A DNA stretch of 64,000 nucleotides from Sulfurospirillum sp. (GTDB lineage: Bacteria; Campylobacterota; Campylobacteria; Campylobacterales; Arcobacteraceae): positions 124,001 through 188,000 of the forward strand of contig JAKZMJ010000030.1 of assembly GCA_030491005.1 (NCBI GenBank), given 5' to 3'. Positions 4,599-16,757 of the stretch are shown here, in pieces. Each line of letters starts with the position of its first letter. Position 1 is the stretch's first letter. Made by a program: the position numbers and the translations under genes. The notes under the pieces are model-generated. The model was not told where the DNA came from, did no database searches, and saw nothing but the letters and a program-made list of their open reading frames with translations.

Positions 4599-6944
4599 AT
4601 GAATCAAGCAGTACATAATAAACTAGTATCTTTTATATGGAGTATCGCAGACGATTGTCTTAGAGATGTGTATGTTAGAGGAAAGTATCGTGATGTGATA
4701 TTGCCTATGGTTGTTTTAAGAAGACTTGATGCACTACTAGAGCCTACAAAAGATGCTGTTCTTGAAGAAGTAAAGTTTCAAAAAGAAGATGTCGGACTTA
4801 CTGAACTTGATGAAAATGGTTTAAAAGATGCTAGCGGATATGTTTTTTACAACACAAGCCTTTGGACACTTCTAAGACTTCATAATACAGCTACAAATTC
4901 GCAAGCATTGCTAGAAGCAAATTTTAGTGAATATCTTGATGGATTTAGCAGCAATGTAAAAGAAATAATTGAAAAGTTTAATCTTCGAGCTCAAATCAAA
5001 CACATGGCTTCAAAAGATGTACTACTAGAAGTACTTGAAAAGTTTACATCGCCAAATATCAATTTGACCAATATAGAAAAAGAGGATGGTGATGGTAAAA
5101 AACTACCACCATTAACTAATCTTGGTATGGGTTATGTTTTTGAAGAACTTATCAGAAAGTTCAATGAGGATAACAACGAAGAGGCAGGAGAACATTTCAC
5201 GCCTAGAGAAGTAATAGACCTTATGACACACATAATTTTTGATCCAATCAAAGACAAACTACCACCAGTTATGACTATATATGACCCTGCTTGTGGAAGT
5301 GGTGGTATGCTTACTGAATCTCAAAATTTTATCAAAGATGAAGATGGAGAAATAAGAGCTACTGGGGATGTCTATCTTTATGGAAAAGAGATAAATGATG
5401 AGACTTATGCTATTTGTAAATCTGATATGATGATAAAAGGGGATAACCCTAAAAATATTAGAAATGGTTCTACATTATCAGTTGATGAGTTTAGTGGTAC
5501 AAAGTTTGACTTTATGCTTTCTAATCCCCTTTACGGTAAATCATGGGCTAGTGAAATGAAATATATAAAAGATGGTAAGGATATTATAGATCCTCGCTTT
5601 ATAGTTAGACTAAAAGATTATTGGGGAAAAGAAGCAGAAGCTGATGCAACTCCAAGAAGTAGTGATGGACAACTTCTATTTTTAATGGAGATGGTTAGTA
5701 AGATGAAGCCAATATCTTCAAGTCCAATAGGCAGTCGTATAGCATCAGTACATAATGGTAGTTCTCTTTTTACTGGTGATGCAGGTGGTGGAGAGAGTAA
5801 TATACGAAGATATATAATTGAAAATGATATGCTTGAAGCAATTATCCAACTACCAAATAACCTTTTTTACAATACTGGAATAACAACATATATATGGATA
5901 CTTTCAAATAATAAAACAGAAGATGGAAAAGGTAAAGTACAACTTATAGATGCTGGACAACTATACAAAAAATTACGAAAAAATCTTGGAGATAAAAACT
6001 GTGAGTTTACTCCAGAACATATTACAGAAATAATTGAAGTCTATCAAAGTATGAAAGTACAGGATAAAGATGATGAACAGAAACTTGCAAGTAAAGTATT
6101 TGATAATAGTGATTTTGGTTACTACAAAGTAAATATTGAAAGACCTAAAAGATTGAAATCACAATTTAGAGATGATTTAATAGAAACACTACGATATGAT
6201 AAATCTTTATTAGAACCTATGACTTGGGCATGTAAAGAATTTGGTAATGAAGTTTATAAAGATATAACTAAATTTGAAAAAGAGATTTTAGAGTGGTGTG
6301 AGAAAGAGGAAATTATCTTAAAAGCAAAACAGAAGAAATCACTTATTTCAAAAGCATTATGGACTAAATATGAGATGTATTTAAGTGTAGCTAATACTCT
6401 TAAAGAGCATATAGGAGATAAAGTTTCGGATGATTTTAATATCTTCAAAATAGAAATTGATAGAGTTATCAAACAAGAAAAAATAAAACTAAGTTCAGGT
6501 GAAAAGAATCAAATCTTAAATGCTATTTCTTGGTATGATGAGAGTGCTGTAAAAGTTGTTAAAAAATTATCTAAAATAACTAAAGAGAAGTTAGAAACAC
6601 TACTTGAACATTTAGGATGTGAAGAAGATAAACTTTGTGATTTTGGTTACTATAAAACTGATAAAGCGAATGAATATATAGAATATGAAGCACATACAGA
6701 TATAAGAGATAGTGAAAATATACCATTAGCTGATGATATTCATAGTTACTTTTTAAAAGAGGTAAAACCACATGTAGATGAAGCTTGGATAAATCTTGAT
6801 AGTGTAAAAATTGGATATGAGATAAGTTTCAATAAATACTTTTATAAACACAAACCTTTGAGAAGTATAGATGATGTTTCAAAAGATATATTAGGTCTTG
6901 AAGAACAGAGTGATGGCTTGATTAAAGAGATATTGGGGCTGTGA
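4599..6944 (+). CDS. hsdM: type I restriction-modification methyltransferase subunit HsdM
   Basis: 781 residues. An N-terminal HsdM helical domain (about 1-150) is followed by an N6-adenine methyltransferase domain. EHFTPREVIDLM leads into the S-adenosylmethionine motif DPACGSGGM, starting near residue 229. The catalytic motif at residues 309-312 reads NPLY (in SNPLYGKSW) where the family normally has NPPY or NPPF. The C-terminal part after about residue 540 is long, charged and helical. HsdM would act with HsdS to methylate adenine at the target site. The stop is followed one base later by the DUF1016 gene. The substitution raises doubt about catalytic activity. Confidence 0.93.
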   Translation: MNQAVHNKLVSFIWSIADDCLRDVYVRGKYRDVILPMVVLRRLDALLEPTKDAVLEEVKFQKEDVGLTELDENGLKDASGYVFYNTSLWTLLRLHNTATNSQALLEANFSEYLDGFSSNVKEIIEKFNLRAQIKHMASKDVLLEVLEKFTSPNINLTNIEKEDGDGKKLPPLTNLGMGYVFEELIRKFNEDNNEEAGEHFTPREVIDLMTHIIFDPIKDKLPPVMTIYDPACGSGGMLTESQNFIKDEDGEIRATGDVYLYGKEINDETYAICKSDMMIKGDNPKNIRNGSTLSVDEFSGTKFDFMLSNPLYGKSWASEMKYIKDGKDIIDPRFIVRLKDYWGKEAEADATPRSSDGQLLFLMEMVSKMKPISSSPIGSRIASVHNGSSLFTGDAGGGESNIRRYIIENDMLEAIIQLPNNLFYNTGITTYIWILSNNKTEDGKGKVQLIDAGQLYKKLRKNLGDKNCEFTPEHITEIIEVYQSMKVQDKDDEQKLASKVFDNSDFGYYKVNIERPKRLKSQFRDDLIETLRYDKSLLEPMTWACKEFGNEVYKDITKFEKEILEWCEKEEIILKAKQKKSLISKALWTKYEMYLSVANTLKEHIGDKVSDDFNIFKIEIDRVIKQEKIKLSSGEKNQILNAISWYDESAVKVVKKLSKITKEKLETLLEHLGCEEDKLCDFGYYKTDKANEYIEYEAHTDIRDSENIPLADDIHSYFLKEVKPHVDEAWINLDSVKIGYEISFNKYFYKHKPLRSIDDVSKDILGLEEQSDGLIKEILGL

Positions 6945-6945
6945 G

Positions 6946-7965
6946 ATGGAGATAATAAACAGTAATCTAATAGAAAATTTAAAATATCTTATAGTATCTT
7001 CACGGGGAAAAATTGTCCAATCAGTAAATACTACAATGGTACAAACATATTGGAATATCGGTAAAACACTTGTAGAAGATGAACAACAAGGAAATGCAAG
7101 AGCTACTTATGCTAAACAGCAATTAAAACAAATCTCACAAGAGCTAACAAAAGAGTTTGGAAAAGGTTTTGATGTTTCAAATTTACAAAATATGAGACGG
7201 TTTTATATTGCATTTCCAATTCAAGAGACACTGTCTCCTAAATTGAGTTGGAGTCATTATTGCAGATTGATAAAAATAGAAAATAAAACTGCTAGAGAGT
7301 GGTACATAAATGAATCAATAGAAAATAACTGGAGTGTGAGAGCCTTGGGAAGACAAGTATCAAAGCTATATTATGAACGATTACTTTCAAGTCAAGAAAA
7401 ATTACCACTCAGACAAGAAGCAGAAGAAAAAACAAAAAATCTTAAAATAGATGTGAAAGATTACTTACGAGACCCTTATATTTTTGACTTTTTAAATATA
7501 CCTAATAAAACTCTATTTGAATCAGATGTAGAACAATCTCTCATAGCCAATCTTCAAAACTTTTTACTAGAACTTGGTCGTGGTTTTGCATTTGTATCAA
7601 GACAACAGAGATTAAGTGTGGAGAAGCAAGATTTTTATATTGACCTTGTCTTTTATAACTTTAAACTAAAATGTTTTTTGCTTATAGATTTGAAAATTGG
7701 TAAACTTACTCATCAAGATGTAGGGCAAATGGATACCTATGTACGGATATACGATAAGTTTGAAAAAAATGAAGATGATAATCCTACCATCGGTTTGATT
7801 TTGTGTAGTGAACACTCAAAAGCAGTAGCAAAATACTCAGTTTTAAATGATAGTGAACAACTCTTTAGTTCCAAATATCTACCATTTTTACCTACAATTG
7901 AGGAGCTTCAAAACGAACTTTTAAGAGAGAGAGAATTATTGAGTATTGGTGTTGAAGATGAATAA
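6946..7965 (+). CDS. DUF1016/YhcG-type PDDEXK nuclease-domain protein
   Basis: 339 residues. The N-terminal DUF1016 region includes YWNIGKTLVEDEQ, FGKGFDVSNLQNMRRFY and LSWSHYCRL. The C-terminal PD-(D/E)xK-like core is near residues 225-255, where YIDLVFYNFKLKCF leads to LIDLKIGKL, giving an Asp and a D-x-K in place of the more common E-x-K. This family is often found between type I restriction genes, as here between hsdM and hsdS; its role is not established. It starts 2 nt after the hsdM stop. Confidence 0.88.
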   Translation: MEIINSNLIENLKYLIVSSRGKIVQSVNTTMVQTYWNIGKTLVEDEQQGNARATYAKQQLKQISQELTKEFGKGFDVSNLQNMRRFYIAFPIQETLSPKLSWSHYCRLIKIENKTAREWYINESIENNWSVRALGRQVSKLYYERLLSSQEKLPLRQEAEEKTKNLKIDVKDYLRDPYIFDFLNIPNKTLFESDVEQSLIANLQNFLLELGRGFAFVSRQQRLSVEKQDFYIDLVFYNFKLKCFLLIDLKIGKLTHQDVGQMDTYVRIYDKFEKNEDDNPTIGLILCSEHSKAVAKYSVLNDSEQLFSSKYLPFLPTIEELQNELLRERELLSIGVEDE

Positions 7966-8081
7966 ATCAAGTATTCAATATATAAAAAAATGGTTTCTAT
8001 TTTATACAAAAAGCCAACAGTTTGTTGCCCAAAATATAGGTTATAGATTTTTTTTATTCCAATTATGAAAAAGGTTTGAAA

Positions 8082-9380
8082 ATGAATAAATTAGAAAAAT
8101 ATTCAGCTTATAAAGATAGTGGCGTTGAGTGGTTGGGGGAGATTCCTGAGGGGTGGATGACTTTAGCAAATAAACACATATTTAAAATTAAACAAAATCT
8201 AGTTGGTAAAAAATCAAAGGAATATGACTTATTGTCTTTAACTCTCAAAGGGATTATTAAAAGAGATATGGATAATCCTAAAGGTAAATTTCCTACTGAT
8301 TTTGATACTTATCAAGAAGTTAAAATAGATGATTTTGTATTTTGTTTATTTGATGTTGAGGAAACACCTAGAACTGTTGGATTATCAGACTATGATGGAA
8401 TGATTACAGGTGCTTATACAGTAATGCAAGCTAATAGTTTAAATAAAGATTATTTGTATTATTTTTATTTAAACTTAGACAGTAAAAAAAGATTAAAATT
8501 TTTATATAAAGGACTAAGAAATACTATTCCCAAAGATGCTTTTTTTAGTTTTAAAACATTGATTCCACCAAAACAAGAACAAATAAAAATGGCTTCATTT
8601 CTTGATACTAAAACAGAACAATTAGATAAAGCTATAAAACAAAAAGAACAACTGCTAGAGCTTTTAAAAGAGCGACGACAAATTCTTATAAATAATGCTG
8701 TTACAAAAGGGATAGATAATACTGTAGCAATGAAAGATAGTAGAGTTGAGTGGATAGGTGAGATTCCTAAGCATTGGGAAGTTAAAAAAATGAAATATGT
8801 TGTGAAAAAGATCGCTGATATTGGCCATTATATGCCTGATACAGTTTCTGTTGGAAAACCATATTTAATGACTGGCGATATTTTAGATAGAGCTAGTTTA
8901 ATTAATTTTTCAAACTGTAAACAAATAGCAGAAAAAGATTTTTTAAAATTATCAAAAAAGATAAGACCAATGATTGACGACTTAATATTTGCGAGATATG
9001 CAACAATAGGAACAGTTTGTTATGTAGATATAGAAAAAGATTTTCTTGTTTCATACTCTTGTGTTACAATAAAACCTAATCCAAAAAGTATTATGGGTAA
9101 ATATTTATTTTACTATTTAAAATCAGATGCTTTTTCTAAAGAAATAAAAAAATATATAAATTCTAATACTCAAGGAAATGTTGGTATTGATTCACTTTAT
9201 AAAGCTAGATTAGTTATTCCACAGATTTTAGAACAAAATAATATAGTTAATTATATAGAAAAAAATAATCATAAAATTTATAAAGCAATAAAACTGCAAC
9301 AAGAGCAAATTATTAAACTAAAAGAATATAAAACTACTTTGATGGATAGTGTAGTAACTGGAAAAGTGAGGGTTGTATAA
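8082..9380 (+). CDS. hsdS: type I restriction-modification specificity subunit HsdS
   Basis: 432 residues with two target-recognition domains in tandem. Each half starts with a related conserved segment (DSGVEWLGEIPEGW near residue 12 and DSRVEWIGEIPKHW near residue 220). Each ends in a long helical spacer such as LDTKTEQLDKAIKQKEQLLELLKER. The subunit selects the bipartite DNA target for HsdM and HsdR. The start is ATG 8082 with AAGG eight bases upstream, in preference to an in-frame TTG at 8076. The half-to-half homology could allow domain exchange, but no silent cassettes are seen nearby. Confidence 0.93.
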   Translation: MNKLEKYSAYKDSGVEWLGEIPEGWMTLANKHIFKIKQNLVGKKSKEYDLLSLTLKGIIKRDMDNPKGKFPTDFDTYQEVKIDDFVFCLFDVEETPRTVGLSDYDGMITGAYTVMQANSLNKDYLYYFYLNLDSKKRLKFLYKGLRNTIPKDAFFSFKTLIPPKQEQIKMASFLDTKTEQLDKAIKQKEQLLELLKERRQILINNAVTKGIDNTVAMKDSRVEWIGEIPKHWEVKKMKYVVKKIADIGHYMPDTVSVGKPYLMTGDILDRASLINFSNCKQIAEKDFLKLSKKIRPMIDDLIFARYATIGTVCYVDIEKDFLVSYSCVTIKPNPKSIMGKYLFYYLKSDAFSKEIKKYINSNTQGNVGIDSLYKARLVIPQILEQNNIVNYIEKNNHKIYKAIKLQQEQIIKLKEYKTTLMDSVVTGKVRVV

Positions 9381-9420
9381 TGATTATCACTTCAAGAGAA
9401 ACTAAAATAATGGAGAAATT

Positions 9421-10470
9421 ATGGATTTAAAAAATATAAATATGGAGCTAATATTTAATAAACTGACTGAAAAAGGTATCTGTAAATTTGTTAGTCTTTT
9501 TGATATAGATGGTGAAATTGCATGCAGTAAGGAAGCATTAAAAAAACTTGTTAGAGAATCTATGGGGGAAGATACACTTTTTGAGTCAATTCCTATTGAA
9601 AAATTCATACAGTATTATCAAAATACTGAAAAAGCTGGACAAAAACACTTTTATTTTTATAATTTAGAAATAAATGACACTATACTTGAAAATATTGAGC
9701 ATTTTAAGAGCTTGCATACAAACGAAGACGACAGAAAGTTTGATACAGCTCAAGACGATGAATGGTTTTATAGAGAAGAGAATGATGAAATAACATGTAA
9801 ACTAATTAGTATAAAAGAAGTATATCAATATGACAATACATTAAATAAAGCTGTTAAAGATGGTGTTTTTTATAAAGCATATCATGTGAAAACTATACAA
9901 AATATTTTGTTTTTTAGATTTTATTTAAAAGAAAATAAAGTTGTCATAGGTATTGATAAATATAGTGATTTAGATACACCAACTGATATTAAGAAAAAAA
10001 TTATTAAAAGTTTCGAATTTATTTGTGGAAAAGATAGTCATATAGAGCTAGAAAACTTATTAGACAATGATACTGTAGAAAATTTATTAACTGTATCAAA
10101 TGCAATAAGTACAAATATTAAAAATGAAATTAATCAACATAAAAAATCAGCAATGTTTGCTAAGCATGCAGATTTAAGTAAAATACTTGATGATTTAGAT
10201 AATGGAGTATATCAACTAGAACAAGTAAAAGCTAAAAATCCAGACTTTGATATTAAAACACACCCAACTTACATAGCAGAACAGTCAAAAATGTATGATG
10301 ATGATTTACAAGTAGATATTGAAAATACTCAAATTTATTGGTTTACTCATCAATATAAAAAATCTGACTATTTTAGAATTAAAATTAACACAGGAGATAG
10401 TTGTATTACTACTTATTCACCTAGTATCTCTAAAGAGGAGTTTGACGATGTTATATCACAAGTTATTTGA
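9421..10470 (+). CDS. unrecognised protein, first gene of a two-gene module
   Basis: 349 residues, family not recognised. No signal peptide, membrane helix or zinc motif is visible. Residues 1-110 look mixed alpha/beta (FVSLFDIDGE, then HFYFYNLEI). The middle has strand-like stretches (YHVKTIQNILFFRFYLKENK, then VVIGIDKYSD). Residues 215-290 are helical (TNIKNEINQHKKSAMFAKHADLSKILDDL in pieces), and a short strand-rich C-terminus follows. GGAG six bases upstream supports the ATG. The 3' end overlaps the cyclase-like gene by 23 nt, so the two are probably translated together. Position inside the type I restriction locus suggests a defence role; this is inference. Confidence 0.7.
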   Translation: MDLKNINMELIFNKLTEKGICKFVSLFDIDGEIACSKEALKKLVRESMGEDTLFESIPIEKFIQYYQNTEKAGQKHFYFYNLEINDTILENIEHFKSLHTNEDDRKFDTAQDDEWFYREENDEITCKLISIKEVYQYDNTLNKAVKDGVFYKAYHVKTIQNILFFRFYLKENKVVIGIDKYSDLDTPTDIKKKIIKSFEFICGKDSHIELENLLDNDTVENLLTVSNAISTNIKNEINQHKKSAMFAKHADLSKILDDLDNGVYQLEQVKAKNPDFDIKTHPTYIAEQSKMYDDDLQVDIENTQIYWFTHQYKKSDYFRIKINTGDSCITTYSPSISKEEFDDVISQVI

Positions 10471-11368
10471 TTTAAAAGATATTGGTTTAAATTCGCCTAG
10501 TATAGCTTTATTGTTAGAAAAATTTAACTCGCTAGGTAATAGATCGTTAATTACTTATAATGATATTCAAAAAAGTATAAAACAAAAATTACTGATAGAT
10601 AGGGTTGTTGATTTTCTTCTTGAAAACAAGCTAATTGAATTAAATACTGAAGATGAAGAAGGTATTTATAAAATTCTTGTAGCTCTTCCTCAAACTAGTT
10701 TAGAAAAAGAATCTAAAGAATATATGGATAGTAAATTATTTTTTGCACAAAAAGAGCTACTGATAAAAAAAATAGAATCTTATAAGCGAAATCATAAAGA
10801 AGCTTATATATTATTTTTAGATTTAGCCAATTCAACTGAAAAATATGATGGTGATTTGATAAAAAAAAACCATATTATTAACAAAAGTTTTCCAAAAATT
10901 ATAAGTAAATGTATAGAATCATATTTTAATAGAACAAAAGGCTATTTAATAAGTCAAAAAGGAGATGAAGCACATTTGCTTTTTTTTAATAAAATTGATT
11001 TAGATAATTTTATTAAAAAATTTATTATTCTCTATAATGAAGAAATATTTGAAGAAATTGAAAAATTTAATTTAACAAGAGATATTGAAAATGACTTTTT
11101 AAATAAGATGTATTTAAAAATATTTATTGCTCGTTCTGAAGTAGATACACCAATTTATTCAGTTAATACTATGCCAAATTTTAATGATATGGATGCATTT
11201 ACTTTAATTAATAGAGTTGAAAAGAATTTTAAAGAATCTTTAGAAAAACTAGGTCAAGAAGAAATAGAAATGTATTTTATAGTATCTATCGATAAGTTTG
11301 ATGATAGTGAATTTATTGCTATAACCAATCAGGATAACCCTATTAATATCTTTTATAAGATATATTAG
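10448..11368 (+). CDS. winged-helix protein with divergent class III nucleotide-cyclase-like domain
   Basis: 306 residues. Residues 1-75 resemble a winged helix. Residues 118-260 align by eye with class III cyclases. FLDLANST (D125) matches the F-x-D-hydrophobic-x-x-S-T metal motif. QKGDEAHLLFF (D173) matches the second metal Asp. DAFTLINRVEK (249-259) matches the usual DAVNLAARLEK, keeping R256 but with Thr in place of Asn. The Lys and Asp that select adenine are not at their usual positions, so the nucleotide used is open. The start at 10448 keeps the full winged helix; an in-frame ATG at 10319 would overlap the upstream gene by 152 nt. Confidence 0.6.
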   Translation: MLYHKLFDLKDIGLNSPSIALLLEKFNSLGNRSLITYNDIQKSIKQKLLIDRVVDFLLENKLIELNTEDEEGIYKILVALPQTSLEKESKEYMDSKLFFAQKELLIKKIESYKRNHKEAYILFLDLANSTEKYDGDLIKKNHIINKSFPKIISKCIESYFNRTKGYLISQKGDEAHLLFFNKIDLDNFIKKFIILYNEEIFEEIEKFNLTRDIENDFLNKMYLKIFIARSEVDTPIYSVNTMPNFNDMDAFTLINRVEKNFKESLEKLGQEEIEMYFIVSIDKFDDSEFIAITNQDNPINIFYKIY

Positions 11369-11376
11369 GAATATGG

Positions 11377-12354
11377 ATGAGTAATATCCTAATTTATAAA
11401 AATGATAACGGCAATATAAAAGTTGATGTAAGATTTGAAGATGAATCTTTATGGCTATCTCAAACTCAAATATGTGAAGTATTTGGTAAAGCAAAATCAA
11501 CTATCAGTGAGCATATAAAAGCTATTTATGATGAAGAAGAACTAGATAAAGAAGTAGTTGTTCGGAATTACCGAACAACTGCTTCTGATGGCAAAAATTA
11601 TGATGTAGCTTATTATAACCTTGATATGATAATAGCTATAGGTTTTAGAGTGCGTTCTAGTACAGGTACAAAGTTTAGGATATGGGCAAAAGATAGGATT
11701 AAAGAGTATATAACTAAAGGCTTCGTTCTAAATGATGAACGATTTAAATCAGGTTCTTCTATGAACTATTTTGATGAACTTCAACAACGATTAAGAGATA
11801 TACGAATATCTGAAAAGTTCTTTTATCAAAAAATAAAAGACATATATAGCACAAGCAAAGACTACGATGCTAAAGATGAAAAAACAGTGGTATTTTTTAA
11901 ACTGGTACAAAATAAACTATTATGGGCTATCTCATCCAAAACAGCAGCTGAACTTGTACATAGTCGTGTAGATATAAGTAAACCTCTTTTAGGAATGACT
12001 TCTTTTGATAAAGATGGTAAAAATATCACTAAACGAGATGTAAGTATCGCTAAAAATTATCTTAATGTTGATGAGATAAAACTCTTAGGTCTTTTAGTAG
12101 AACAATACCTTGCATTTGCAGAAACGATGGCGATGCAACAAACACCAATGTATATGAAAGATTGGGCTGTACGATTAGATATGGTAATCTCTATGAATGG
12201 TAGAGAGCTGTTAAATCATGCAGGAAAAGTTAGCCATGATAAAGCAAAAGAAAAAAGTGAACAAGAGTATTTAAAATATAAAGAAAATAAAAAACAACTA
12301 CAAAGATTAGAAAGTTTAAAAGATCTTGAAGAAGATATAAAGAGGTTAAAATGA
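11377..12354 (+). CDS. rhuM: RhuM-family protein
   Basis: 325 residues of the RhuM family, first noted as a virulence-associated gene and common in type I restriction loci and islands. The N-terminal DNA-binding-like region contains LWLSQTQICEVFGKAKSTIS (about 26-45), which resembles a helix-turn-helix. It is followed by YYNLDMIIAIGFRVRSSTGT and FRIWAKDRIKEYITKGF. The C-terminus is a charged helix. It starts 8 nt after the cyclase-like gene and overlaps hsdR by 4 nt (ATGA), so it is part of the same transcription unit. Its role in the system is unknown. Confidence 0.88.
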   Translation: MSNILIYKNDNGNIKVDVRFEDESLWLSQTQICEVFGKAKSTISEHIKAIYDEEELDKEVVVRNYRTTASDGKNYDVAYYNLDMIIAIGFRVRSSTGTKFRIWAKDRIKEYITKGFVLNDERFKSGSSMNYFDELQQRLRDIRISEKFFYQKIKDIYSTSKDYDAKDEKTVVFFKLVQNKLLWAISSKTAAELVHSRVDISKPLLGMTSFDKDGKNITKRDVSIAKNYLNVDEIKLLGLLVEQYLAFAETMAMQQTPMYMKDWAVRLDMVISMNGRELLNHAGKVSHDKAKEKSEQEYLKYKENKKQLQRLESLKDLEEDIKRLK

Positions 12355-12826
12355 GAAGTCAAACAAATGAATTAGCATTAGAGCAAAGTATTGAAAAAGC
12401 ACTTACAGGTACAACTGCTGAAGAGCTAAAAGGTGTGGTAAGTGAACCAACACCTACATATGGAGTTAAAAATGACTTTTATGTAGGTTTTAATAGTAAT
12501 TTTAACAAAGAGTATGCCATAGATGAAAAACGATTTTGGAACTTCTTAGAATCAACTCAAGTTGATGAACTAGATAAATTAAAAAGAGATCCACAATATA
12601 AGCTAAAAATTATCCAAAGACTAGATAGGATGATAAAAAAGTATGGAATTTTAAAACTGCTTCGTAAAGGTCTTGATGTAGATGATGCTCATTTTACTTT
12701 AATGTTTGTAGCTCCACTTGCTTCAAGTTCACAAGCTATTAAAAAAAGATTTGATAGCAATGAGTTTAGCGTCACAAGACAGATTATTACACAAAAAAAT
12801 CAAAAACCAGATATGGTTATATTTAT
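12351..12826 (+). pseudogene. hsdR: hsdR, 5' fragment before the IS5-family insertion
   Basis: The N-terminal part of a type I restriction endonuclease subunit, from the ATG that overlaps the rhuM stop. It includes the nuclease-domain residues up to QITQKNQKPDMVIF-type sequence, in the region where HsdR normally continues as a second strand and MELK. The homology ends at 12826. Beyond this the frame reads about 10 residues into the insertion and stops at 12860. Removing the element and one TTAT copy rejoins this frame exactly to the downstream fragment as VIFINGLPIITMEL. Confidence 0.9.
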
Positions 12827-14209
12827 GGGCACCTCTAAAAATAGACAAAAAATCACATAATTTTCAAATACTTAGAAAATCATAAAATAAGTCTTTTATT
12901 TAATCCAAATAAATTTACAAATAACTCTCTATAAAGCTATTATTTAAAGCATTTGATACCACTATTTAGCTATAATTACAACATAAATTATTATAAAAAG
13001 TGAGTATATTATGGCAGGATTATTTGATTATGAGTTTCAGCTAGAAAAGATTAAAAAGCATCAACCACCTTTACAAAAGTTAAATGAAATTATTGATTGG
13101 GAATTATTTAGACAACCTATTGAAGAATCATTAATGAAAGAAGATAAAAAAAGTAATGCTGGTAGGAAACCATATGATAAACTCTTAATGTTCAAAATAA
13201 TTATACTTCAAAGATACTACAATTTATCGGATGAACAAACAGAGTTTCAAATCAAAGATAGATTATCTTTTATGAATTTTCTAGGTCTCCAAATAGGTGA
13301 TAATGTACCTGATAGAAATACAATTTGGCTATTTAAAGAAGAACTAAAAGAGAAAGATTTATCAAAAAAACTATTTGATATTTTTACTGCTAAACTTTTA
13401 TCTAATGGTGTTATTGCTAAAGAGGGAACACTTGTAGACGCTAGCTTCATCAAAGTACCTAAACAAAGAAATAAAAGGCAAGATAATGCTGATATTAAAA
13501 AAGGTGCTATTCCTTTAGAGTTTGGAAAGAATAAAAATAAATTAGCTCAAAAAGATATAGATGCCAGATGGGTTACCAAGTATAAAACTAGAGAATTTGG
13601 ATATAAAAATCATATATCAGTTGATCAAAAAACTAAAGTAATATCTACTTATACTGTAACACCCTCATCAACTCATGATTCACAAGTAATTAAAGAACTT
13701 ATCAATGAAGATGATACTACATTGTATGCTGATTCAGCATACAAATCAAAAGAGATAGAAGACTATCTTCAAAAAAATAATGTAAACTCAAAAGTTATCA
13801 ATCGAGCATATAGAAATAAACCACTTACTAATGCTCAACACAAACTCAATCATAAATATTCAAAAACTAGAGTAAGAGTAGAACATATATTTGGAACATT
13901 CACAACCTCTATGAATAAAGCTCTATCTTTAAAAGCTATTGGCATTGATAGGATTAAATCCTTAACAGGACTTCTAAATCTTACTTATAACTTTATACGA
14001 TATGAACAATTAGTAAGGTTAAAAAATATACCAATTATGAAAAGTTGATAATATATCAACAAAATAGTGAATATTATCACTATTTCAAGAGTAAATTATA
14101 GATAATTTATAGTTGAAATTGTCATATTTTCTCAAATAAAATTTATATTCTGATATTTTTTAATAAATATTTGGAAAGTGGTTTTTAAATGCTATTTTTA
14201 GAGGTTCCC
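12827..14209 (+). mobile_element. IS5-family insertion sequence, complete, inside hsdR
   Basis: 1383 bp. The terminal inverted repeats are GGGCACCTCTAAAAATAG on the left and, read inward, GGGAACCTCTAAAAATAG on the right, matching at 17 of 18 positions. It is flanked by direct TTAT copies at 12823-12826 and 14210-14213, a 4-bp target duplication. It carries one intact transposase. The noncoding ends (12827-13010 and 14049-14209) hold no further gene. Near-perfect ends and a clean duplication suggest a recent insertion. Confidence 0.95.
13011..14048 (+). CDS. IS5-family DDE transposase
   Basis: 345 residues, apparently intact. The N-terminal IS5 domain includes GRKPYDKLLMFKIIILQRYY and a DRLSFMNFLGL segment. 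The catalytic triad is visible as LVDASF (Asp near 143), LYADSAY (Asp near 240) and RVRVEHIFG (Glu near 291). It cuts and rejoins the element ends at 12827 and 14209. An AGTGAG-type sequence precedes the ATG. It is transcribed in the same direction as the split hsdR and may share its transcript. Confidence 0.95.
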   Translation: MAGLFDYEFQLEKIKKHQPPLQKLNEIIDWELFRQPIEESLMKEDKKSNAGRKPYDKLLMFKIIILQRYYNLSDEQTEFQIKDRLSFMNFLGLQIGDNVPDRNTIWLFKEELKEKDLSKKLFDIFTAKLLSNGVIAKEGTLVDASFIKVPKQRNKRQDNADIKKGAIPLEFGKNKNKLAQKDIDARWVTKYKTREFGYKNHISVDQKTKVISTYTVTPSSTHDSQVIKELINEDDTTLYADSAYKSKEIEDYLQKNNVNSKVINRAYRNKPLTNAQHKLNHKYSKTRVRVEHIFGTFTTSMNKALSLKAIGIDRIKSLTGLLNLTYNFIRYEQLVRLKNIPIMKS

Positions 14210-15888
14210 TTATAAATGGTTTACCAATAATTACAATGGAATTAAAAAAATTATCACAAAAAAATGGTAATGGTCAAAGTGCAAAAGTTGAGGGAATAAA
14301 ACAATATCAAAATAGAGATATTAAGGATAACCTTTATAACTTTGCAAGATGTATAGTACATTTTACAATTGATGAAGATGAAGCATATATGACTACTAAA
14401 CTAGATGGTAAGAAGACTTTCTTTTTACCATTTAATAAAGGTAACAAACATGGTAAAGGAAATCCAGTAAATCCTGATGGACATAAAACAGCCTATATAT
14501 GGGAAGAGGTATTTACTAAAGAATCTCTTGCAGGACTAATTCAACACTTTGTACGACTAGATGGAAAAGATGGCGATACCTTATCTAAAAGAACACTGTA
14601 TTTTCCAAGATACCATCAGTTAGCTGTAGTTAGAAAGATAATAGAAAATGCAAGTGAAAAAGGTGTAGGACAAACATATCTTATACAACATAGTGCAGGA
14701 AGTGGTAAGTCAAATTCTCTTACATGGGCAGCTTATCAGCTTATAGAAACTTATCCTAAAAGTATAGATACAGTTGGAAATAGAGGATTAGATAATCCAT
14801 TGTTTGATTCAGTAATTGTAGTAACAGATAGAAGACTTTTAGATAAACAGCTAAGAGACAATATAAAAGAGTTTAGCGAAGTTAAAAATATAGTTGCTCC
14901 AGCATATTCAGCAAAAGAACTTAAGGCAAGTTTAGAAAGTGGTAAAAAGATAATCATCACTACAATACAAAAGTTTCCATTTATAGTTGATGGTATATCA
15001 GACTTGAGTGATAAAAGATTTGCAATTATTATAGATGAAGCTCATAGTTCGCAAAGTGGTTCTGCTCATGATAATATGAATATTGCAATGGGAAAAGAAA
15101 AGAATAATACAATTGAAGCTGAAGAAGCCATATTAGAACTAATGAAACAAAGAAAACTAAAAAATAATGCTTCTTATCTTGCTTTTACTGCTACACCAAA
15201 ACCAAATACAATAGAAAAATTTGGAATAAAACAAGATGATGGAACTTTTGAGCCATTTCATCTTTATAGTATGAAACAAGCAATAGAGGAAGGTTTTATT
15301 TTAAATGTATTATCAAACTATACAACACTTAAAAGTTATTATGAGATAGTAAAATCTATAGAAGATAACCCTAAGTTTAATACTGCCAAAGCACAAAAAC
15401 AGCTCCGAGCATTTGTTGAGAGAAATGAAAAAACAATAGCTGTTAAAACAGATATTATCTTAGACCACTTTGTAAATAAAATAGTAAATACCAAAAAGCT
15501 AAAAGGAAAAGCCAAAGCAATGGTAGTTACTCAAGATATACAAACTGCTGTTTTATACCATTTTGCTATAACTAATAAACTAAAAGAGTTAGGAAATCCA
15601 TTTAAAACTATTATTGCATTTTCAGGTAAGAAAGAAGTAAAAGGGATTGAATATACAGAAGATGGGTTAAATGGCTTTGCTAGTAAAGATATAAGTGAAA
15701 AGTTTGATAGCTATGAGTATAGAATACTAGTAGTAGCCAATAAGTTTTTAACAGGATTTGACCAACCAAAACTTACTGCTATGTATGTTGATAAAAAACT
15801 ACAAGATGTGATGGCTGTTCAAGCACTATCAAGACTAAATAGGTCTGCTGATAAACTAGGTAAAAAACAGAAGATTTATTTGTACTAG
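14210..15888 (+). pseudogene. hsdR: hsdR, central fragment with the helicase motor
   Basis: Begins at the second TTAT copy; the homologous frame reads INGLPIITMELKK across the junction. It continues through the translocase: Walker A HSAGSGKSNS (near nt 14690), DEAH in IIDEAHSS (near nt 15040), YLAFTATPKPNT, and motif VI region VQALSRLNRS. The frame stops at 15886-15888 after an A6 run at 15862-15867. One more A would continue as LGKKTEDLFVLDFFNKVEDIK. A short product from ATG 14236 is possible but would lack the nuclease domain. Confidence 0.9.
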
Positions 15889-16757
15889 ATTTTTTTAATA
15901 AGGTTGAAGACATAAAATCATCATTTGATCCATTTTATACTGCTACTAGTTTAAGTGGAGCTACTGATGTAAATGTACTTCATGAATTAAAAGATTCATT
16001 GGATGATGTAGGTGTGTATGAATGGGAAGAGGTAGAAATTTTTATTGAAAAATATTTTAATAGAGTTGATGCAAGTGAACTTAGCCCTATTATAGATGTT
16101 GCAGCCCAAAGATTTAACATTGCTTTGGAAATAGAAGATGAAGAAAAGGTTGATTATAAAATCAAAGCAAAACAATTTGTAAAAATATATGGACAAATGG
16201 CTTCTATTATGCCGTATGAGATAGTAAACTGGGAAAAGCTATTTTGGTTTTTAAAGTTCTTAATACCAAAGCTAATTATAAAAGATAAAGACAAAGACAT
16301 ACTAGATGAGCTTTTAAATTCAGTTGATTTATCTACTTATGGACTTGAACGAGTAAAATTAAATATTTCAATTGGATTAGATGATAGTGAAACAGAGATT
16401 GATCCACTAAATCCAAATCCTAGAGGTACACATGGTGGAGAAGAAGAAACAGACCCTTTAGATGTCATCATAAATAGCTTCAATGAACGATGGTTTCAAG
16501 GGTGGGATGCAACACCAGAAGAACAAAGAGTTAGATTTATAAATATGGCTCAAAAGATGAAAGAACATCCAGATTTTAAAAGTAAATATGTAGATAATCC
16601 TGATACACATACAAGAGATTTAGCTTATGTAAAAATCTTTGATGATGTTATGAATAAACAAAGACGAAGTGAACTAGAACTTTATAAAAGAGTATCTCAA
16701 GATGATATTTTTAAGAGTGCTTTTCAAGATACTGTTAAGAGGTTGTTGAGTGTTTGA
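15867..16757 (+). pseudogene. hsdR: hsdR, 3' fragment after the frameshift
   Basis: The continuation of HsdR in the next frame, starting at the A6 run with TEDLFVLDFFNKVEDIK and ending in LELYKRVSQDDIFKSAFQDT. It is the helical C-terminal region that docks HsdR to the HsdM/HsdS core. An ATG at 15999 could start a 252-residue protein but has no convincing ribosome site. With the 5' and central fragments, the intact gene would have encoded about 1005 residues, a normal HsdR size. Confidence 0.87.

Follow-up and report, generated by a model that had tools for sequence, protein, structure and literature searches.

Two overlapping genes of Sulfurospirillum sp. may constitute a rare mobile signalling cassette inserted among restriction-modification genes, which encodes a cyclase-like enzyme (P1) and a soluble partner (P2), and we put the probability of this explanation at about even. 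As judged from its catalytic positions and predicted fold, P1 is class III cyclase-like. It is expected to act as an active but unusual cyclase, not as a standard adenylate or guanylate cyclase, because both metal-binding aspartates and the arginine have been kept, the base-selecting positions and the transition-state asparagine have been changed, and there are precedents for the loss of this asparagine. We infer an antiviral purpose for the pair.

In the window (the whole analysed stretch of 64,000 nucleotides), the P2 gene comes first (9421..10470, forward strand, 349 aa) and is followed by the P1 gene (10448..11368, forward strand, 306 aa). Both genes are intact and start with ATG, and their reading frames overlap by 23 nt (10448..10470, forward strand), from which translational coupling is probable. 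By reading of the sequence, GAGGAG stands ahead of the P1 start codon. The longest mechanically called ORF of P1 begins with TTG at 10319; the conserved start is the ATG at 10448, and the same holds for the relative from GLR69 described below. The surrounding type I restriction locus comprises hsdM (4599..6944, forward strand), hsdS (8076..9380, forward strand, PF01420), located just 5' of the pair, and rhuM (11377..12354, forward strand, PF13310, E 1.4e-96; PADLOC candidate PDC-S05), the next gene after P1. It should be mentioned that a gene for a YhcG/DUF1016 PD-(D/E)XK nuclease (6946-7965; PADLOC candidate PDC-S02) lies between hsdM and hsdS in the type I operon. The hsdR gene is broken into three pieces (12351-12860, 14236-15888 and 15999-16757), of which the first and the last were assigned by position and by eye and are without profile match; a DDE-transposase insertion sequence (13011-14048) interrupts its N-terminal part, and the gene is broken again at about 15888-15999. 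The placement of the two genes between hsdS and rhuM/hsdR with 23 shared nucleotides, made earlier in a sequence-only reading, agrees with these coordinates, and its remark that both were intact beside a dead hsdR is borne out by the full ORFs and the three hsdR pieces. No structured RNA was matched in the P2-P1 region with Rfam, and promoter and terminator scans of the region gave the same results as its shuffles.

Homologues of the pair were collected in two surveys. The first, which covered about 85,000 species genomes and reached close relatives only, returned one further pair, in the metagenome-assembled genome of Helicobacteraceae bacterium isolate GLR69 (locus L001), with 87% identity in P2, 75% in P1, the same gene order and a 23-nt overlap. 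The second survey, of about 400 genomes of the same order, added a divergent third copy in genome G123 (locus L023), with 53% identity in P2, 51% in P1, the same gene order and a 20-nt overlap. Furthermore, the decayed remains of a further P2 copy lie at the end of a contig in genome G110 (locus L025, 16-381); as read by eye, they consist of N-terminal residues, and the conserved KLTEKGICK is followed immediately by a stop codon. No homologues of P2-P1 were obtained from plasmids, phages or viral contigs. Matches of the G123 copies in tblastn at E 1-10 were taken as chance, as were the weak genome matches other than G123 and G110, which had short coverage, stops or E-values of about 0.001-0.01; one of the weak matches, in G037, overlies unrelated genes. 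Since three full copies and one decayed fragment were found, the family is rare at the similarity reachable by these searches.

The proteins themselves are maintained by purifying selection, as dN/dS values between the window and GLR69 were low (0.054 for P2 and 0.177 for P1; 0.155 for rhuM). The lower value for P2 than for P1 is in keeping with a partner whose contacts are constrained at many points, or which has an active site. The GC content of the pair is low, 22-25%. Synonymous divergence across the block shared by the window and GLR69 was uneven (1.31 in P2, 0.85 in P1 and 0.49 in rhuM), which suggests that the block is a mosaic, with a later exchange of rhuM than of the P2-P1 pair.

The genomic contexts of the three copies differ. 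The block common to the window (9411..12352, forward strand) and GLR69 (L001, 6963-9932) contains P2, P1 and rhuM only, at 82.9% DNA identity; over the 17 kb read in GLR69 the type I genes have been lost, rhuM has been kept and the pair is intact, and the more distant genes look like housekeeping genes. Just upstream of the GLR69 pair there is an ORF of 157 aa (L001, 6484-6957) without a Pfam match, which by eye resembles the arm-binding N-terminus of a tyrosine integrase fused to an hsdS-like C-terminal remnant. In G123, the pair adjoins a type IIG restriction enzyme-methyltransferase (PADLOC, E 4.5e-198) and a GmrSD/Orf5-like protein. Direct repeats of 134 nt, corresponding to the 5' end of the type IIG gene, occur at L023 positions 1-134, 2235-2368 and 7162-7295 and are 83-100% identical; two of the three bracket the pair, as if a cassette had entered a tandem series of type IIG genes. 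The repeat at 1-134 follows directly on P1 and is cut off by the contig end; rhuM does not lie between them, and the minimal unit therefore consists of P2 and P1. Going by these arrangements, the unit moves among restriction genes of different types. A neighbourhood survey had been proposed as a check in the sequence-only reading, and the pairing was indeed kept outside a type I locus, between type IIG genes in G123 and after the loss of type I genes in GLR69; a known non-defence family did not emerge from it. The restriction-gene contexts are the best evidence for a defence role, which is circumstantial and comprises three contexts, and with so few copies found the link to defence rests on few of them.

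Three motifs of P1 pointed out from the sequence at the outset were located at residues 123-130 (FLDLANST, 10814..10837, forward strand), 171-180 (KGDEAHLLFF, 10958..10987, forward strand) and 249-259 (DAFTLINRVEK, forward strand, of which AFTLINRVEK, residues 250-259, corresponds to 11195..11224). The first motif, invariant in all three copies, carries the metal-site Asp125 and the second the metal-site Asp173; the third has Arg256 at the position of the transition-state arginine and Thr252 where class III cyclases carry asparagine. D125 and D173, assigned to beta1 and the beta2-beta3 hairpin, are invariant in all P1 copies and 48 residues apart, and the likewise invariant R256 follows D173 by 83 residues. 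Among true cyclases of related bacteria (n=23), the corresponding spacings are 44-45 and 81-94. A pattern drawn up on the basis of the general consensus of class III cyclases, [hydrophobic]-x-D-[ILVM]-x-x-[FSY]-[TS] followed by GD and then by R-[LIVMSA]-E at class III spacing, occurs at identical columns in the three P1 copies (D125, D173 and R256), and not one of 100,000 shuffles of the alignment columns (three sequences) gave it in full. When 224 ORFs of at least 150 codons from all loci were searched, the 36 matches were P1 copies and PF00211 cyclases only, these counts including repeats, as the loci overlap. As the motifs had already been named in the sequence-only reading, the test with this pattern is in part post hoc. 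The order and spacing of the P1 motifs are more than chance.

Positions responsible for substrate choice have been altered in P1. In Rv1625c, metal is bound by D256 and D300 (44 apart), the base by K296 and D365, and the transition state by N372 and R376 (PMC4174876). The asparagine four residues before the arginine, carried by local cyclases, is Thr252 in all P1 copies. The substrate-specifying lysine, four residues before the second metal aspartate and present in local cyclases, is replaced by S169 in the window and reads S/S/K across the three copies, with K in G123. The substrate-specifying Asp/Thr, eleven residues before the arginine, is T in local cyclases and F245 in P1, with phenylalanine in all three copies. 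Two residues before the second aspartate, P1 has K in the window and Q in G123, and all local cyclases have I; pyrimidine cyclases select the base near this position (F60, K104 and F109 in AnPycC; F100, R142 and Q144 in EaPycC; PMC11224242). According to PMC4886424, DUF2652 proteins have lost the asparagine and kept the arginine, and Rv1900c is also without the transition-state asparagine.

Comparisons of P1 with Pfam, NCBIfam, PADLOC and PHROGs gave nothing above chance, and neither did Pfam scans of its homologues. There was no match to PF00211 (Guanylate_cyc) at E<=10, to PADLOC models at E<=1 or to the GGDEF and mCpol profiles of Pfam; P1 has diverged too far for profile methods in general. 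HMM and profile-profile (hhalign) comparisons built from 26 cyclases of related bacteria produced no signal either, and sequence-profile homology of P1 to ordinary cyclases is therefore not claimed. AlphaFold models of both proteins were made from two-sequence alignments only, with the G123 copy left out, and were of poor confidence (mean pLDDT 40 for P1 and 37 for P2). The P1 model shows the order beta1, alpha, beta2-beta3 with GD in the turn, alpha, beta4, alpha, and its secondary structure outlines a three-helix, winged-helix-like region at residues ~13-66 (10484..10645, forward strand), in keeping with the low confidence of the model a tentative assignment. In a Foldseek search of the P1 model against 350,542 PDB chains, class III cyclases occupied all top 23 rows (E 1.2e-4 to 5.5e-3), a result which we treat as supportive only, because of the poor AlphaFold confidence. 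VIA-align gave the P1 model Z-scores of 7.2-7.6 for cyclases, level with those for GGDEF, Cas10 and designed ferredoxin folds, and thus did not separate class III from these. The P2 model, made in the same way and similarly poor, served as a control and retrieved nothing at E<=0.001 and no coherent family with Foldseek. Residues 118-280 of P1 resemble a class III cyclase domain in divergent form. The earlier suggestion that P1 is class III cyclase-like was thus upheld by the shuffling test and by the top 23 Foldseek rows of a pLDDT-40 model, structure prediction, one of the checks proposed for it, having retrieved class III cyclases from the PDB, if with low confidence.

With class III adenylate and guanylate cyclases (PF00211), P1 shares the two metal aspartates and the arginine in the same order and at near-canonical spacing, and its low-confidence model suggests a similar strand and helix order. 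It differs from them in that the substrate lysine, the Asp/Thr and the asparagine are replaced by S/K, F and T, respectively, and in the lack of a profile match. Since the substrate and transition-state features are missing, it is named here class III cyclase-like and not class III cyclase.

Pfam, NCBIfam, PADLOC and PHROGs contained no family matching P2, and Pfam scans of its homologues were likewise negative, so both genes are undescribed in the libraries searched, as had been proposed. No Pfam matches of TIR, CNBD or transmembrane type were detected in P2 at E<=10, and it has no hydrophobic segment (maximal Kyte-Doolittle value 0.69 over 19 aa), which agrees with the first description of the partner as neither TIR nor membrane protein. 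We consider P2 a soluble partner and a candidate effector or sensor. Its affiliation with Hcp (PF05638), prompted by weak matches to one Hcp (E 0.037 and 0.012; about 1 in tblastn), was rejected, as shuffled P2 reached the real score in 67 of 2485 cases and the profile-profile probability was 0.1%. A KwaB-like identity (PF16162) was also discarded, there being no match in the genome of the window and none for P2. Fold searches with the P2 model pointed at no coherent family.

The following way of working can be proposed. P1 would be a soluble enzyme, probably a homodimer, in which a winged-helix-like N-terminal region precedes the cyclase homology domain, with D125 and D173 binding metal and R256 contacting phosphate. 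Infection or foreign nucleic acid would trigger P1, either directly via the winged-helix-like N-terminus or through P2. The product may be a cyclic nucleotide different from the usual cAMP and cGMP, since the purine-selecting positions have been changed. P2, encoded by the overlapping upstream frame, would be the dedicated partner of P1 and most likely its effector, responding to the nucleotide and stopping growth or blocking the invader; less likely, it would be a sensor that switches P1 on.

The main rival to an active cyclase is a pseudo-cyclase, which would have kept the fold and would bind a nucleotide as a sensor without making a cyclic product, so that the pair would answer to nucleotide pools or phage nucleotide metabolism. 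The replacement of the base-selecting lysine, the Asp/Thr and the transition-state asparagine is in line with this, as is a divergence that escapes all profiles; however, both metal aspartates and the arginine are invariant across copies about 50% identical, whereas in a pseudo-enzyme nothing would prevent their loss, and we regard a pseudo-cyclase as rather unlikely. It is improbable that P1 should be grouped instead with a different palm-fold lineage, that of GGDEF, Cas10 or mCpol-like proteins, and have a cyclic di- or oligonucleotide as its product, in the manner of Panoptes or type III CRISPR: although P1 has a GDE hairpin motif and GGDEF and Cas10 chains equal cyclases in VIA-align score, Foldseek puts class III cyclases first, FLDLANST matches the class III form D-[IL]-x-x-[FS]-T, GGDEF and mCpol matches in Pfam are lacking, and there is no 2TM-beta partner, P2 being devoid of transmembrane segments.

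Two further explanations dispense with a separate signalling system. The pair might regulate the expression or activity of the adjoining restriction genes, which would suit the winged-helix-like N-terminus predicted for P1 and the position of the pair, always beside restriction genes or their remnants. We hold this to be unlikely, as the neighbours differ (type I genes in the window, type IIG and GmrSD-like genes in G123), the GLR69 pair is intact beside a mere hsdS-like remnant, and the pair in the window is intact next to a broken hsdR. The view that the genes are carried along passively, or form an addiction pair with no relation to nucleotide signalling, is the least probable of the four, despite the patchy distribution, the low GC and the cassette-like borders and repeats in G123, given the conservation of cyclase-type motifs in P1 and the strong purifying selection on both proteins.

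Returning to the signalling cassette, the closest parallel in its proposed working is Pycsar (the class III pyrimidine cyclase PycC with a PycTIR or PycTM effector), likewise a two-gene unit of a soluble cyclase-like protein and a dedicated partner. Like PycC of clades D and E, P1 has polar, variable residues at the base-selecting positions (PMC11224242). P1 gave no PADLOC match at E<=1, at a divergence that is beyond profile methods in general; P2 differs by the absence of TIR, CNBD or transmembrane segment, and the pair by the upstream, overlapping position of the partner gene. As the CNBD-TIR/TM effector feature is missing, P2-P1 is described as Pycsar-like in its proposed working and is not filed as Pycsar. 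DUF2652 cyclase-like proteins (PMC4886424) resemble P1 in being cytosolic and class III-like but divergent, with the aspartates and the arginine kept and no asparagine; P1, unlike them, has no Pfam match to DUF2652 or any cyclase family, and an overlapping partner gene is not described for these proteins in the part of that source considered. Panoptes (mCpol and 2TM-beta) is also a two-gene defence system of a palm-fold nucleotide cyclase and a partner (PMC12657230), from which P1 differs in having neither an mCpol Pfam match nor a GGDD motif, and P2 in having no transmembrane segment. It is possible, and we suggest it tentatively, that the pair represents a cyclic-mononucleotide immune system distinct from Pycsar, with a divergent cyclase, unusual base selection and a new soluble effector without known cyclic-nucleotide-binding domain.

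The idea lends itself to a direct test by point mutation, with D125, D173 and R256 as the invariant residues. P2-P1 may be a small, undescribed immune-signalling pair; if the proposed working is true, cyclic-mononucleotide immunity would gain a second type made up of two genes, with an effector outside the known families and possibly an unusual signal. P1 would then also suggest that current profile libraries overlook divergent cyclases, and the number of such systems may be underestimated.
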